Source of the DNA: Candidatus Poribacteria bacterium | Lineage (GTDB): Bacteria > Poribacteria > WGA-4E > UBA9662 | Assembly: GCA_012963885.1 (NCBI GenBank) | Contig: DTUY01000189.1 | Coordinates: forward strand, 1-64,000 | Direction: 5' to 3' | DNA: 64,000 bases | Shown here: piece by piece, positions 43,650 through 59,697 of the stretch | How the letters are laid out: every line of letters starts with the position of its first letter | How positions within the stretch are numbered: position 1 is the stretch's first letter | Notes under the pieces: generated by a model | Databases searched by the model: none | Told to the model about the DNA's origin: nothing | Seen by the model: the letters and a program-made list of their open reading frames with translations, nothing else | Translations under genes and position numbers: made by a program

Positions 43650-45566
43650 ATGGTAATATCTCTTCGAAGATTCTTGCCATTAATGGCTACTGTTTTCTTG
43701 TCTGCTAATGTGTTAACCGTCTCTGCCAAAGAGGTGAAATTTGATTTTCAATTTGGAGGCAAAGGAAACAGTGAAGGTAAATTTTCGGACAAAACGCTGT
43801 TTAGCTTTGATCAAGAGGGAGCTATCTACATTGCAGATAACGGCAAGGGAATGAGAAAAATTCAGAAACTTATGCCAGACGGTACCCTTGCGTTTACAAT
43901 TAAGAGCGATCCAAAAAAATTTATCTTCGCAAATATCACCGATATGGCTATTGGTACTGATGGCAAAATCTACGTTTCAGACTGGAAAATTTCGCCGATT
44001 GAAGGTGCAGATGATCCCAAGCTCTTCACCTACGGAGCTTGCATTCACAAATTTAATGCCGAAGGTCAGTTCATCGAGACCTATTTCGTTCACCGCTTGA
44101 CCCATTCAGGGATTAGATTTCTTCCGGATTCGCCATTAGGGGCGATTGTCAAGCGCAATTTGACTAATACGTCTCTCCCACTGAACCACCAGTCACTTTC
44201 TCAGCATTCCCAGTTTTTTGAAACTGCGTTACCCGCTTTAGATCCTGATGGGCACTATGCACTTTTTCTGCCACAAGGAAATACCAAAAGAACCTTTTTT
44301 CTCTCAGTTGATGAACAAGAGAATATGTATGTTTTTGATGACGGCAAAATCCGAAAAATCTCTGCAGAGGGTTTTATACTGTCAACATTTACGGTAGATC
44401 AACCTGGTGCCGGACAGGTCGCTGAAGCCGCTGACATGGCTATTGATCTGAAGGGACATATTTACATTGTCGATCAAAAATTGCATCGCATCCTGAGATA
44501 TAATGCCAATGGTGAATTCGTTTCGACTTTTGGAAAACAAGGTTACGATGATGGTGAATTGATATCCCCTTATCATCTGGTTGTGTTAGCGGATAATTCG
44601 GTTCTTGTTGCTGATAAATCTCGATACTGGAAACTATCCTCTTCCAAGTTACCAACTCGTATGAATGATCCACTAATGACTCCTAAGTTTCAGCAACTTG
44701 TTAGTGTTGGGCGTACTTTTCAGAGTCGTTTTTTGAGAGTTCAACGATTTAGCTCCGACGGGAATTTTCTCGAAAAGACTCTGGTTCGTTTTCAACGAGA
44801 AGACAAGAGTTTTGCCAATTTAGAATTGAAAGCAATTGATTTAACCGGTAGCCTCTACTTTATCAACACCCAATCGTTGCGAGTAAGCAAATTTTCACCA
44901 GCCTCACCGTTTGTTAGATCTGCATTGCAAACCGAAGTTCAACTCACATACCACCGGAACGATGAGGGAACCTGGATCGACAATGAAGATGATTTGGATG
45001 CTGACGTTCACCAAGGGGCCGATTATGAACAGGATCTGACCGACAACGGCATAGATGCCACTGCTATCTTTACATACGATTTTAACGAAGATTTTCGGAT
45101 TAAGCTAACTAACACTATCGGTTGGAGTGAAACAACCGATGATTTATACTATCGTACGCCTGCCTTCGAAGACTTTCGCGGGAGTTTCGTGGCTGACGGT
45201 CGAACAGTCAAAGATAGCTTGAGAAATAATATTGTGCTGGGCTTTGAACTCATCCGAGATCATAATCCCTATACCTATAGGGAAATAGGAGGGGACGTCA
45301 ACCTGTCAGTCACGAACATGGGGCAGATCAAGTATGCTTTTGACCCAAGTAACAAAAGTTACCTCGATTTCTCGGCTAGGACTGTTGGCTGGGGTGCCAA
45401 TGTATACTACGATTTCGGGAGAACCTTTCGACTGAAATTTCAAATCAGAGGATCAAACGGTGGTGGAAGTTACACCTACAATGATGAACTCGATATGCTT
45501 TACATGACTTTTGCTTCAAATGCTGGGTACACTCAAGTCAAAGTCATGATTGATGGAGTATTCTAA
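43650..45566 (+). CDS. Secreted NHL-repeat propeller with C-terminal beta-barrel-like domain
   Basis: A 638-residue protein with a signal peptide ([19 protein letters not shown]). Residues 30-350 contain NHL-like repeats, e.g. [40 protein letters not shown] and [18 protein letters not shown]. Residues 430-638 are rich in alternating strands ([38 protein letters not shown]). This may be a small outer-membrane barrel or surface domain. It ends in Phe (KVMIDGVF), as many outer-membrane barrels do. It follows nusB by 3 nt, probably as a read-through gene with no shared role. Confidence 0.68.
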
Positions 45567-45660
45567 GGCTTACAGCACAAGCATAATCTCTTTCGCTCGA
45601 TCTATTGAGTGTCATTTTCGTTTCGGTTTCTGCCTTAGGTCATGGTTAAAAGAGGTCGTG

Positions 45661-46296
45661 ATGTCCGAGAAAACACTTGAAGGCAGTATACATGTTCCTG
45701 ATTTCCCCCAAGACATGGAGTGGTTCAATACCGATACTCCAATTTCTCTTCTGAATTTACGGGGTAAAATTGTTTCACTTGATTTCTGGACTCTCTGTTG
45801 TATTAACTGCCTACACACCACCCCTGATCTCAAAAAATTAAAGGAGAAGTTTTCTGATCTTGAAACACTCGAAGCCAAACCTCATGCAGGAACTGGTCGC
45901 GAAGCACGGGTAGACGGCAAGTTACTCAAATCCGCGCTTACACAACCAAGCAGTATTAATAAATGGCGAGAAACTTTATTTCGCTGATAGCGAGATTAGT
46001 TCAATACGTTCTGCCAATATTAACTCAAATGGTGTCGCAAAAACTATTATCGGAAAGGCCTGTTTGAATTCGATGATGCTGATGGATACTTCTCATCTAC
46101 CCAATTGCCGCATCCGGTTGATGTCGTTTTTAAAGATGGCGCACTTTACATAGCGGATACATACAATTCGAAAATCAAAACGATTGATCCAACCAAACGA
46201 GTCGGTAATTCATTTGCGGGGACAGGTCTACACGGTTATGCTGATGGGGTCAGATTCGAAAAATTGACCTTGAAACCAACCAAGTTGAAATCATGA
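45661..46296 (+). pseudogene. Broken thioredoxin-NHL protein (NHLRC2-like)
   Basis: The frame from ATG 45661 encodes the first half of a thioredoxin-like domain ([19 protein letters not shown], active site [12 protein letters not shown]). It then jumps to unrelated-looking sequence with a missing middle. NHL blades follow in other frames: [12 protein letters not shown], then LPHPVDVVFKDGALYIADTY. It ends truncated near 46296. At least two frameshifts and a large deletion are needed. The intact homologous family has a thioredoxin domain fused to NHL repeats. Confidence 0.8.
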
Positions 46297-46327
46297 AATT
46301 CTTCAATTAATTTGGAATTCAAGAAAA

Positions 46328-47113
46328 ATGGCTCTAAAAGGTAAAAACATCGTTATTGTCGGTGGAACGTCCGGTATGGGGTTGTCAGCGTGTCAGGCAT
46401 GTATTCAGGCAGGAGCGAAGGTTTCTACCTTTGGTCGCAATGCCGAGAAAGTTGAGCGATCCAAAAAAATATTAGGCAATCAAGCAACTATTGCCGTTGG
46501 TAACGCCACAGATCCAAATATGGTTTCGTCTGTGATTGATCGGTTCGTGGCCAAGCAGGGAATAATCCATGGTCTTTATCATGTGGCAGGCGGTAGCGGC
46601 CGCAGTATGGGAGATGCGCCACTGCATGAGGTCACAGACAAAGGGTGGTATAAAACTATAGAACTCAACCTAACTTCCATGTTTTACTCAAACCGTGCGG
46701 CAGTCCGGCAGTTCCTAAGACAGAAAACCCGCGGCTCGATTTTAAACATGGGATCCGTCCTGGGATTTTCTCCATCCTCTCGTTATTTCGGCATGCTTAC
46801 CTATGCTACTGCCAAATCAGCTATCATCGGGATGACCAAATCCTCTGCCTCCTTTTACGCAGATCAAGGTATTCGGTTCAATGTCATTGCGCCTGCTCTC
46901 GTTGATACACCAATGGCAGAACGAGCCTCGACCGACCAAAAAATTATGCAGTACATTCAAACCAAGCAACCGTTGGATGGTGGGAGGATTGGCTTGCCCT
47001 CCGATCTAAATCAGGCGGTGGTATTTTTTTTGTCAGATGCTTCAAAATTCGTAACCGGTCAAGTTCTAGCCATTGACGGTGGCTGGTCGATCTCGGAAGG
47101 ACAATATCTATGA
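46328..47113 (+). CDS. Short-chain dehydrogenase/reductase (SDR)
   Basis: A 261-residue Rossmann enzyme. IVIVGGTSGMGLSACQAC is the coenzyme-binding loop and GRNAEK follows strand 2. ILNMGSVLGFSPSSRY and YATAKSAIIGM hold the catalytic Ser, Tyr and Lys, and NVIAPALVDTPMA and LAIDGGWS are typical of classical SDRs. Substrate unknown. The stop overlaps the ATG of the SIS-domain gene by 4 nt (ATGA). Confidence 0.88.
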   Translation: MALKGKNIVIVGGTSGMGLSACQACIQAGAKVSTFGRNAEKVERSKKILGNQATIAVGNATDPNMVSSVIDRFVAKQGIIHGLYHVAGGSGRSMGDAPLHEVTDKGWYKTIELNLTSMFYSNRAAVRQFLRQKTRGSILNMGSVLGFSPSSRYFGMLTYATAKSAIIGMTKSSASFYADQGIRFNVIAPALVDTPMAERASTDQKIMQYIQTKQPLDGGRIGLPSDLNQAVVFFLSDASKFVTGQVLAIDGGWSISEGQYL

Positions 47114-49033: not shown

Positions 49034-50122
49034 TTGGGAAATAAAGCGTCTTTTATTCAAAACCTAATTTTCTTTATAGTAGTTTTTCTCATTATCACCG
49101 TCAGTGGTTGTGAAGACGATGCGATAAACGAGGCCAAGCCCAAACTCGGCCAAATTGAAGGTTTGCTAAAACCAGCTGATGCTGCTACTGAAATTCAACT
49201 GGTACAGGCAGGAAATATTGTGGCAACCACCTATCCGGACGAGAATGGAAAATACATTTTTTCTAATCTGGAATTTGGGGGCTATGACATCATTGTTATT
49301 GCAGAAGGATACCATGTCGCATCTGAAGTCAACACCATCACACTTGACAAAGAAGTCGCTATCAAGAATTTCCAGCTTGTTCCACTGATGGCATCAATAC
49401 GGGGAATCGTCATAGATTCTGAAGGTGCATTTATAGAAAATGCATCAATTACGGTCTCTGCACTTGGTGATGAATTTACAACTCAAACAGATCAATTTGG
49501 GGTTTTTTCTTTTAATCAATTACCACCAGAAGTTGGGTTGGTATTGGGAATCTTTGCAGATGGAAAGGTTGAACTTCAGGTTACAGTTGAGCCAATTGAA
49601 AAGGGAGGAACAAAAGATCTACAAATCAGTCTCAAAGAAATAGAACAGAAAATTGGTGTCGGTTCACAAGTAGGCGACTTGGCTCCCAATTTCTCATTAC
49701 CTGATGTGGATGGTAAAATTGTTTCTTTGAAAGATTTCGCTAGCAAACAAACTGTTCTGCTTACCTTTCACCGTGGCAAGTTGTGACCTGTATGCTTACC
49801 GCAGTTGGTACAACTGCTACAAAAAAATTATAATAAAATTTCAGATCTCAAAGCTGAAGTCATTGCTATTAGTCATGAATCTGTGGTCGAAAACAAGAAG
49901 ATTCATCAGCAACATAAACTGAAATATCTTTCTCTATCGGATCCAACAGCAAAGACAATTCGGGACTACAAGGTGTTAGACTTTGGCAGATTTCCCAAGG
50001 TATCCTTTTTCATTGTTGATAAGCAGGGCATTATTCGTTGGCGTTCCACGCACAGTGGTGCCAATCCTGATGATTTGCCAAAGATTGATGACTTGCTTAA
50101 GGCAATTCAGTTAGCCCAGTAA
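49034..50122 (+). CDS. Probable selenoprotein: peroxiredoxin-like (AhpC/TSA) lipoprotein with in-frame UGA
   Basis: One frame of 363 codons from a TTG (GTAGG upstream) to TAA is interrupted only by TGA at 49784-49786. The N-terminus is a lipoprotein signal ending TVSGC (Cys near residue 18-20). Two CarboxypepD_reg/Ig-like domains follow (IEGLLKPADAATEIQLV; IRGIVIDSEGAFIENASITV). Next comes the AhpC/TSA domain: GDLAPNFSLPDVDGKIVSLK, LLTFHRGKL-U-PVCLPQLVQ, VIAISHESV, SDPTAKTIRDYKV and SFFIVDKQGIIRW. In homologs the TGA position is the peroxidatic Cys of the RGxWCPxC motif, giving U-P-V-C here. A SECIS-like hairpin follows at 49789-49821. The protein would reduce peroxides outside the inner membrane. 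It heads an operon with a TlpA-like lipoprotein. The alternative is a recent nonsense mutation. Confidence 0.8.
49789..49821 (+). promoter_or_regulatory. Candidate bacterial SECIS element
   Basis: Directly 3' of the UGA, GCAGTTG (49801-49807), loop GTA, CAACTGC (49811-49817) form a perfect 7-bp stem with G first in the loop. TGTA (49789-49792) and TACA (49818-49821) can add a 4-bp lower stem with an 8-nt 5' bulge. The loop starts 21 nt after the UGA. As I recall them, bacterial SECIS rules require a loop 16-37 nt downstream with G in its first two bases; this fits. Confidence 0.75.
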
Positions 50123-50152: not shown

Positions 50153-50665
50153 CTGAGAGCGTTCATTCTTATCGCTTTATTTTGTTGCTCTTTCGGTTGT
50201 TCAAACGAGACTGACAACGCTGATAATCCCAGTAATCCGGCCCAAGACTCGAATTCTCCCCTGGCGCCGGATTTCACCTTGCTCAGCACGGACTTTAAGC
50301 TGGTAAGTTTATCCGACTATCGGGGAAAAATCGTTCTTCTTGATTTTTGGGCTACATGGTGCAAATCATGTCAAGAAGAAATCCCAATCTTTATTGACCT
50401 ATATGACCAGTACCGCGATCAAGGATTTGAGATGGTTGGCATTTCGATTGATAGTGAACGTCTTAAGGTAGTCAATCCTTTTATTGAGAAACTAGGTGTA
50501 AACTATACAATTCTCCTGGGTGAACCAAATCTAATGGACAAATACAATATTATGGCGATTCCAACTGCAGTCCTGATCGACCAATCGGGTAATATCCGTA
50601 AAAGGTTTACTGGTGCGCAACTAGACAGACTTATTTACGAAAATGAATTAAAAAAACTGCTATGA
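50153..50665 (+). CDS. TlpA/ResA-like thioredoxin lipoprotein with apparent CTG start
   Basis: The frame from 50153 reads LRAFILIALFCCSFGCSNE, a clear lipoprotein signal with Cys at position 16, preceded by AGAGGA at 8-nt spacing. The only initiation codon at that place is CTG; a TTG at 50279 would start inside the domain and lose the signal. The thioredoxin core has APDFTLLSTDFKLVSLSDYR and FWATWCKSCQEEIPIF (active site WCKSC), then KYNIMAIPTAVLIDQSG with the cis-Pro. It should reduce disulfides or support cytochrome c maturation outside the membrane. It lies 30 bp after the selenoprotein-like gene and overlaps the next gene by 4 nt. Confidence 0.75.
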   Translation: MRAFILIALFCCSFGCSNETDNADNPSNPAQDSNSPLAPDFTLLSTDFKLVSLSDYRGKIVLLDFWATWCKSCQEEIPIFIDLYDQYRDQGFEMVGISIDSERLKVVNPFIEKLGVNYTILLGEPNLMDKYNIMAIPTAVLIDQSGNIRKRFTGAQLDRLIYENELKKLL

Positions 50666-56894: not shown

Positions 56895-58229
56895 GTGATA
56901 AGAAAACTTGTTCTCAGATGTTTGGTCCAACTTGAAAGAAGAAATTCACAGATTGCACCTGTAATAGATATGGTTATTCGGCAGAATCAATTAAATAATG
57001 TAGACCGAGGACTTCTAACTGAAATTGTATATGGTGCAATTCGTTGGCGAGGGCATCTTGACTGGATAATCCGTCAGTTTGTCAAACCAGACTTTCAACT
57101 CGATTTACAGATGAGAAACATACTGCGGATCGGCGTGTATCAATTACTTTATCTTGATAAGATTCCGGCTCACGCTGCAATTAATGAAACAGTTAAACTG
57201 GCTAATCAAAAAGGACAAAAATCGAAGAATTTTGTCAATGCTATCTTGCGATCAATTCAGCGATCAACCAACAGTTTGACTCCTCCTCGATTTAAATTAG
57301 ATCCGATTTCACACATCTCTACGAAACTGTCTTATCCTGGGTGGTTAGTTAAAAAATGGATCAGGCAGTCTAATCCTGAGTGGACGCTGAAATTCTGTCA
57401 TGCCAGCAACCAAGTCGCCCCTGTATCGATCCGTACCAACACATTACGAACTGACCGAAAAAAACTTGCCAAGTCACTTCAGGAGGATGGTAACCAAGTC
57501 GTAGAAAGCCAGATCTCACCCGATGGATTGCTGCTAACCAAGACTAATCCGATCCGTTCACTGAGTGATTTTCAAGCTGGATTGTTTCAGATCCAAGATG
57601 AAGCCGCCCAACTTGTTTCCCACTTGCTTGATCCGCAGGAAAAGTCACAAATTGTTGATCTTTGTGCATCTCCAGGTGGAAAGACAACACATCTTGCACA
57701 GCTAGTTGGAAATGTTACGAATATCGTCGCAATCGACTTATCGACAAAGAAAATTAAGAGGATTCAGGAAAACTGTAAACGACTCGGTATCACAAATGTC
57801 CGCACGCAAGTAGCCAATGCCACAACAGATGAGATCAAGGCTTTGGCTACAGCAGATTCAATTTTGATTGACGCACCCTGTTCAGGCACTGGTACTTTGC
57901 GACGTCATCCAGATATTCGTTGGAAAAGAACCGCCAAACAGATAGTAGATCTTGCCAATCTGCAACTTGAAATTCTGATTAAAACAGCAATGCAGATAAA
58001 ATCTGGTGCAGTCATAATTTACAGTACATGCTCAACTGAAGTTGAAGAAAATCAGGGGGTAATTACTCGGTTTCTTGAAGTATGCCCACAATTTGCTGTT
58101 GAACCAGCACACGATTTCCTGCCATTTTTACCAGCTGATGCAATCACATCTGAGGGACATCTGCAAGTATTTCCACACACGCATAAAGTTGACGGGACTT
58201 TCGCTGTCAGGTTACGCAAAAATGATTAA
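56895..58229 (+). CDS. rsmB: 16S rRNA (cytosine-967-C5)-methyltransferase
   Basis: A 444-residue protein starting at a GTG. Residues 1-140 are the NusB-like RNA-binding domain ([39 protein letters not shown]). The methyltransferase domain has [19 protein letters not shown] (SAM), [19 protein letters not shown] (catalytic Cys) and [14 protein letters not shown] (second Cys). It methylates C967 of 16S rRNA. A plus-strand TATAAT at 56808-56813 could be its promoter. The stop overlaps the start of the broken ABC ATPase by 8 nt. Confidence 0.92.
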
Positions 58230-59697
58230 TCCATTACTGGAAATGAAATCCATTACCAAAGAATTTCCGGGTGTCCGTGCCCTAGATCAAGTGTCATTCG
58301 CTGTTGAACACGGTGAAATCCATGCGCTCTGAGGCGAAAATGGGGCGGGAAAATCAACACTCATCAAAATCCTTGGTGGCGTTCATCCGTACGGTACTTA
58401 TCAAGGAACATTACGAATCGAAAAAAGGGATCAACAGTTCCATTCTGTCCGTGATGCAAAAAAATCGGGCGTAGCAATCATTCATCAGGAATTGACTCTG
58501 ATTCCCAAGTTGACTGTTGCGGAGAATATCTTCCTCGACAGAGAACAAACCAAACTTGGAATAATTGATCATCATCAACTATATAGCGATACAAACCGAC
58601 TTCCCAAAGATTTTGCTCTTGGCATACCTATTCAAACTCCCATTGAGCATCTTGGGATTGACCAATAGCAGATGGTTGAGATCATCAAAGTCCTGTCGCA
58701 GGATGCACGAGTTTTGGTTCTTGACGAACCGACTGCCGCTTTGACGGAGGCTGAAATCAAAGCCTTACTCCAAATCCTGAATCAACTTCGAGATAAAGGA
58801 ATTACCTGTATCTATAATCACCCATAAACTGAAAGAAGTATTTGCTATTGCTCTGATAGGGTAACAGTCCTACGTGATGGACAAACTATCAGAACCCTAT
58901 CAACTGGCAAAGCTAATGAAAGTCAAATTATTCAAATGATGATTGGTCGTAAGCTGGATTACCAAAGGCAGTCGGATGATGAATTGAAAAAAGGACAGAC
59001 TGACAACACCGCAGACTTGGCCTTACAGGTGAATAACCTGAATGCCTACTACGTTGGTCGTCCCCACCAAACTTATTGTTGAAAAATATTGATTTTAGCC
59101 TTCGATACGGTGAAATCCTCGGCATTGCAGGATTGATGGGGGCAGGCAGAACAGAATTAGTCTTATCGATCTGGGGTGCGTACGATGGAAAAGTTAAAGG
59201 TCAAATTTTGATCGATGGTATACCAGTTCGGATTAATTCACCACAAGATGCAATATCACGTGGAATAGGATTCGTCAGTGAGGATCGGAAACGATTCGGC
59301 CTGATTCTTGACGCTAATCTCGAAACTAATATGACGCTGGCAAGCCTCGATCAGATGACGCAAATGGGTATCATTGATCGTAATCAGGCATTTCATCAAA
59401 CCAGCCATTATGTCGAATCCATGCAAATTAAGTCCCCTTCGCTTGAAACTGCCGTCAAAAAATTAAGCGGTGGAAATCAACAAAAAATGGTACGGGGAAA
59501 ATGGCTGATGACACAACCGAAAATTTTATTTCTTGATGAGCCTGTGGCGATTATTATAACCTCATCAGATGTTACCTGAGATTCTGGGAGTAAGTAGCAG
59601 GATTATCGTCCTTCATGAAGGCGAAATTACTGGCCAATTTACAAACCAGGAAGTGATACAGGAAGATATTCTCCAATGTGCTTCCGGAAGACATTGA
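58222..59697 (+). pseudogene. Broken sugar ABC transporter ATP-binding protein (MglA/RbsA/XylG type)
   Basis: Two fused ABC modules are recognisable. The first begins [20 protein letters not shown] and has a TGA in the P-loop approach (HAL-stop-GENGAGKSTLIKILGG), a TAG in LGIDQ-stop-QMVEIIKVLS, and a frameshift after LRDKGIT. The second module has GEILGIAGLMGAGRTELVLS and VKKLSGGNQQKMVRGKWLM. After LFLDEP about 25 residues of the D-loop and switch region are deleted, and the end (SRIIVLHEGEITGQF to CASGRH) is in another frame. Such proteins power ribose, galactose or xylose uptake. No permease or binding protein is adjacent. Confidence 0.88.

Follow-up and report, generated by a model that had tools for sequence, protein, structure and literature searches.

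The UGA codon at 49784 is almost certainly read as selenocysteine (Sec), so that the peroxiredoxin (Prx)-like lipoprotein gene in which it lies is, judging from sequence, a real selenoprotein gene. Sec coding was strongly supported because the genome carries the machinery for it, the UGA is conserved among homologs, other homologs are Cys forms, the SECIS hairpin covaries and the Sec forms make up a single clade. The window (i.e., the whole stretch of 64,000 nucleotides that was analyzed) comes from a Poribacteria MAG of 6.84 Mb, with contamination estimated by the tool used at 5.45%, which belongs to the same order as the 40 order-level relatives considered below. The gene, its parts and its neighbor are as follows.

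49034..50122, + strand: Sec-containing Prx-like lipoprotein gene with TTG start and TAA stop, predicted to encode 362 aa with one Sec (frame, Pfam, homologs)
49034..49111, + strand: putative signal sequence and lipobox, VSG-C26 (inspection; AF2 helix 4-22; Cys common in homologs)
49145..49381, + strand: first beta-sandwich domain, SdrD_B / SpaA-like (weak, below the Pfam cut-off; AF2 strands)
49394..49633, + strand: carboxypeptidase regulatory-like domain, PF13620 (63 bits, above cut-off)
49670..50041, + strand: AhpC/TSA (Prx-like) domain, PF00578 (93.8 bits, spanning the UGA; Foldseek to Prx structures)
49784..49786, + strand: UGA codon, very probably read as Sec251 of UxxC (UGA kept in Poribacteria homologs; Cys in other phyla)
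49793..49795, + strand: Cys254, second residue of UxxC (matches the peroxidatic Cys of Prx by alignment)
49801..49817, + strand: bSECIS hairpin of 7 bp with loop GTA at 49808-49810 (perfect stem, covariation, window-wide TGA scan)
50153..50665, + strand: adjacent TlpA/ResA-like lipoprotein gene (ATWCKSC) with probable CTG start (neighbor kept in G001, G002, G019/L067 and G021)

Reading frame and coding signal

The frame from 49034 to 50122 consists of 362 codons followed by TAA, and its sole in-frame TGA (codon 251, 49784-49786) falls in the sequence HRGKL-U-PVC. The first-pass annotation had described a frame broken only by this TGA, with both halves in the same frame; that description was accurate and its coordinates and distances were exact, except that the 363 codons it gave included the stop. 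The TTG start aligned with ATG in a same-genus homolog. Coding constraint was evident on both sides of the conserved UGA. Thus, third codon positions held most of the substitutions that distinguish the gene from its 82% identical same-genus homolog, before as well as after the UGA, and this TGA ranked best among those of the window in coding score summed over both sides, aside from one edge case that outscored it, a TGA located 26 codons before a 705-codon frame. If UGA were annotated exclusively as a stop, the gene would be split into two fragments, which makes the family easy to miss.

Domain architecture and active site

By inspection, the lipobox VSG-C26 follows a hydrophobic stretch, and most aligned homologs have a Cys that comes behind an N-terminal hydrophobic stretch. 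In several Poribacteria homologs, in-frame tandem repeats of 39 bp (LANRKLAIQKA-type) were noted in the region of the lipoprotein signal, after the start and ahead of the hydrophobic part (L031:1456 and 1495; L042:1162, 1201 and 1240). Weaker matches to Pfam families of the prealbumin/SdrD_B type precede the PF13620 and PF00578 domains, and the lipoprotein signal and carboxypeptidase-regulatory-like domain of the first-pass annotation were both recovered from sequence and Pfam. In the AF2 model (mean pLDDT 83, pTM 0.50, the relative placement of domains being unreliable), the N-terminal half is strand-rich and the C-terminal domain Prx-like, the latter resembling Bcp/AhpE-type peroxiredoxins in Foldseek comparisons (TM-score 0.84-0.89 by target length).

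When aligned with the Sulfolobus Prx 2ywn, Sec251 corresponds to the TxxC Thr and Cys254 to the Cys that is established as peroxidatic in Prx. FHRGKLUPVC has Arg for Pro and Sec for Thr when compared with FYPAAFTQVC of 2ywn, and thus departs from the PxxxTxxC/U motif of classical peroxiredoxins. The UGA had at first been assigned to the catalytic Cys of an AhpC/TSA CPxC motif; this assignment was not upheld, as Sec occupies the Thr position and Cys254 that of the peroxidatic Cys. Because of these two correspondences, the redox center is predicted to be a thioredoxin-like UxxC on a Prx fold, with Sec at the first position of CxxC. A PF00578 match together with U251-P-V-C254 is the combination that marks Prx-like thiol:disulfide oxidoreductases of the UxxC type.

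SECIS hairpin

The stem of the hairpin GCAGTTG-GTA-CAACTGC begins 14 nt after the TGA. Published constraints on bSECIS elements are a loop of 3-9 nt, G in the first two loop bases, a loop 16-37 nt from the UGA and an MFE of -7.5 or lower (PMC13188914 Fig 2), and the hairpin agrees with all four (PMC13188914 Fig 2), having a 3-nt GTA loop, the first base of which (G) lies 21 nt from the TGA, and an MFE of -8.8 kcal/mol. Perfect stems of at least 7 bp that conform to the bSECIS distance and loop rules followed only 0.7% of the 2826 TGA triplets in the window. In an alignment of 18 sequences, the 7-bp helix was paired in 96% of cells as opposed to at most 44% with the partner slid 1-3 columns, and compensatory changes, on both sides, were seen in 3 helix pairs, these counts being modest since the branch of the family that includes the window's gene is represented by few sequences. 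None of 500 shuffles reached the observed covariation score for the 18 sequences, a control that is inflated by their relatedness. The stems differ yet pair, GCAGTTG/CAACTGC in the window as opposed to the common GCAACTC/GAGTTGC, and the residues they encode differ as well (QLVQL in the window, QLGEL commonly), while a loop with initial G was kept in nearly all homologs compared. The perfect 7-bp hairpin, its GTA loop and its spacing, which the first-pass annotation had likened to bacterial SECIS geometry, are thus corroborated by both the published constraints and covariation.

Conservation and evolutionary history

Homologs at E <= 1e-12 were found in 79 of 85 Poribacteria genomes. Among the phylum matches listed, all carry one in-frame TGA except two, both from G049 (a 61% complete MAG in which no selB exceeded the cut-off), and these are the Cys forms FYRGYWCPVC and FYRGLFCPYC. 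The other two MAGs without selB over the cut-off, G042 and G043, had no homolog at E <= 1e-12. Among the 40 order-level genomes, each homolog listed to approximately E 1e-13 is interrupted by a single in-frame TGA, partial N-terminal matches aside. TGA occupied the RGxx-U-xxC position in all 30 loci read and the same motif in 19 named Poribacteria loci, the named relatives in the protein alignment being Candidatus Poribacteria MAGs L061-L077, L079 and L080. Relatives outside the phylum (Paenibacillus, Acidobacteria, cyanobacteria and others) had Cys in the Sec column wherever the motif was readable, mostly as FYRGxWCPFC. The comparison of homologs at the UGA column that the first-pass annotation had proposed thus gave Sec (UGA) across Poribacteria and, as in known selenoprotein genes, Cys in outside relatives.

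In a tree of the domain, the 48 UGA forms made up one clade (support 0.953) that included 0 of 56 Cys forms. Because the UGA sequences form one clade without Cys members, a single Cys-to-Sec change followed by vertical descent would be the simplest history.

Selenocysteine machinery and the meaning of UGA

The genome contains a tRNA-Sec gene (anticodon TCA, 70 bits, over the Rfam cut-off) that directly adjoins selB, a selA gene (578 bits) and a selD gene with an in-frame TGA of its own. All four components for which the first-pass annotation had suggested a search, SelA, SelB, SelD and tRNA-Sec, are therefore present, as expected of a genome with selenoprotein genes. Among the 40 relatives, selA exceeded the cut-off in 38; the absence in the other two probably reflects MAG incompleteness, since both have selB. 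TGA is the terminator of many homologs of the Sec gene and also of the TlpA gene next to it, and UGA thus remains a stop codon in these genomes.

Other apparent Sec genes were noted elsewhere in the genome. A 301-aa frame at L141:496-1401 (G000:C179), with two PrxQ-like domains and in-frame UGA at residues 47 and 197, reads as a fused double-Prx, double-Sec protein. Another UxxC selenoprotein appears to be a TlpA-like lipoprotein with FWATWUGSC (L144:1312-1908, G000:C52), and a deiodinase-like selenoprotein with GSFTUPPF lies at L151:1399-1989 on the minus strand (G000:C414). SelD and the C179, C52 and C414 selenoproteins support active Sec use in this genome.

A scan of the window gave no second convincing Sec gene. 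TGA 58330 was rejected as a Sec codon because it sits in a frameshifted sugar-type ABC ATPase gene (58063-59594), the frameshifts and in-frame TGA before Walker A of which indicate a pseudogene or assembly error. A Thioredoxin/NHL-type gene at 45550-46341 was likewise found as fragments in several frames.

Gene neighborhood

The probable CTG start of the TlpA gene (50153-50155) sits behind an AAGAGG-type ribosome site, and the same CTG is found in same-genus G001. A TlpA/ResA-like gene follows the Sec gene in the window, G001 and G002, while in L067 (G019) and G021 TlpA precedes the Sec gene or genes and a DUF362 protein gene comes after. In the majority of the remaining relatives, DUF362 comes immediately after the Sec gene, which is present singly or as 2-3 tandem copies. 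Thus, the TlpA neighbor is confined to part of the order, with DUF362 instead in most relatives; the DUF362 genes of the window's own genome are elsewhere, on other contigs. DUF362 neighbors have a twin-arginine-type N-terminus (e.g., L070:6990-8144 and its equivalents in L061-L080), and in an alignment of 14 of them exactly two Cys, spaced by 22 residues, are invariant. From this gene context, an envelope redox pathway common to the Sec lipoprotein and its neighbors is a reasonable inference.

Proposed function and alternative explanations

Sec coding, the SECIS, the domains, the lineage and the neighborhood have computational support, while export, anchoring, activity and partners are predicted. 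SelB with Sec-tRNA and the downstream hairpin would decode UGA 49784 as Sec251, and the product would be exported and lipid-anchored at Cys26. One or two beta-sandwich (carboxypeptidase-regulatory-like) domains would serve as spacer ahead of the C-terminal Prx-like domain with its Sec-Pro-Val-Cys center. Attack by the selenolate of this center on a disulfide, sulfenic acid or peroxide may lead to a selenenylsulfide between Sec251 and Cys254, which would be re-reduced by a neighboring thiol oxidoreductase, here perhaps the adjacent TlpA lipoprotein, and the DUF362 neighbor of most relatives may be a client or partner. The most likely function is thus that of an envelope-anchored UxxC thiol:disulfide or peroxide reductase, and the explanation as a whole, envelope thiol:disulfide-reductase chemistry included, is considered probable. 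Its main rival, which we regard as unlikely, concerns the chemistry of the same selenoprotein, which might instead be a true peroxidase that clears envelope peroxides with Cys254 as peroxidatic and Sec251 as resolving residue. The best solved relatives are indeed peroxiredoxins, with a peroxidatic Cys to which Cys254 aligns, but Arg and Sec replace the Pro and Thr of the Prx signature PxxxTxxC, and the published UxxC class is named thiol:disulfide oxidoreductase (PMC13188914).

Explanations that dispense with Sec fared far worse. Decayed genes do occur in the window, the ABC ATPase with TGA 58330 and frameshifts being one, yet it is extremely improbable that TGA 49784 is a normal Cys codon altered by nonsense mutation, gene decay or a sequencing error, since its retention throughout the phylum in independent genomes refutes decay or error; moreover, the gene has no frameshifts and its downstream half is under coding constraint, as judged from the third-position excess. 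General reassignment of UGA (e.g., to Trp), or its suppression, in this lineage could account for UGA read-through in several genes of the genome but is scarcely credible given that TGA still serves as the stop codon in many of the homologs that carry the UGA and in the neighboring TlpA gene, that homologs hold Cys rather than Trp at the site and that the genome has the full Sec machinery. Termination at the UGA with a separate downstream gene of 105 aa was rejected, since one AhpC/TSA domain runs across the UGA both here and in homologs.

A wider scheme can be put forward tentatively, namely a dedicated Sec redox relay of the Poribacteria envelope, arisen once by early Cys-to-Sec replacement, in which 1-3 tandem Sec lipoproteins on beta-sandwich stalks might have as partner a Tat-exported DUF362 protein with its two invariant Cys, a TlpA lipoprotein or both. 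Most of this little-studied, largely uncultured phylum uses Sec and keeps a Sec redox protein that appears to be exported and lipid-anchored and whose gene neighborhood recurs, which offers an experimental way into envelope redox chemistry and DUF362 function.

Comparison with known selenoproteins

In the open-access literature searched (subscription papers and preprints being outside its scope), nothing was found that linked Poribacteria, carboxypeptidase-regulatory domains or DUF362 to selenoproteins, although the words 'selenocysteine' and 'Poribacteria' occur together in two papers, the former once in each. As far as searched, the fusion architecture, the Poribacteria-wide conservation and the conserved neighbors (TlpA lipoprotein or DUF362 protein) are thus new, and the fusion of a lipoprotein signal with carboxypeptidase-regulatory-like domains, unfamiliar to the first-pass annotation, retains that standing. 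Its description of a new selenoprotein holds for the Sec protein, which appears real, but not for the redox class, since Prx-like thiol:disulfide oxidoreductase selenoproteins (PF00578, UxxC/UxxU, representative WP_010940744.1) are already catalogued (PMC13188914 Table 1). Members of that class share with the Poribacteria protein an AhpC/TSA fold with Sec in UxxC (PMC13188914), whereas the table lists no lipoprotein or carboxypeptidase-regulatory-like form (PMC13188914 Table 1), and the N-terminal half of the Poribacteria protein is an added module of approximately 200 aa. The Sec peroxiredoxin with PxxxTxxU belongs to the same Pfam family (PMC13188914), but Sec251 lies three residues earlier, at the Thr, and the motif is absent. 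The SelL-related redox protein model NF040769 matched the redox domain at 48.4 bits, below its curated cut-off of 120, which places the Poribacteria protein outside that family; the model is also shorter and without the N-terminal module. Also close are the Cys peroxiredoxin-like proteins with FYRGxWCPFC from Paenibacillus, cyanobacteria, Acidobacteria and others, which have the same domain with Cys in the Sec column and match the Poribacteria protein mainly over the redox domain.
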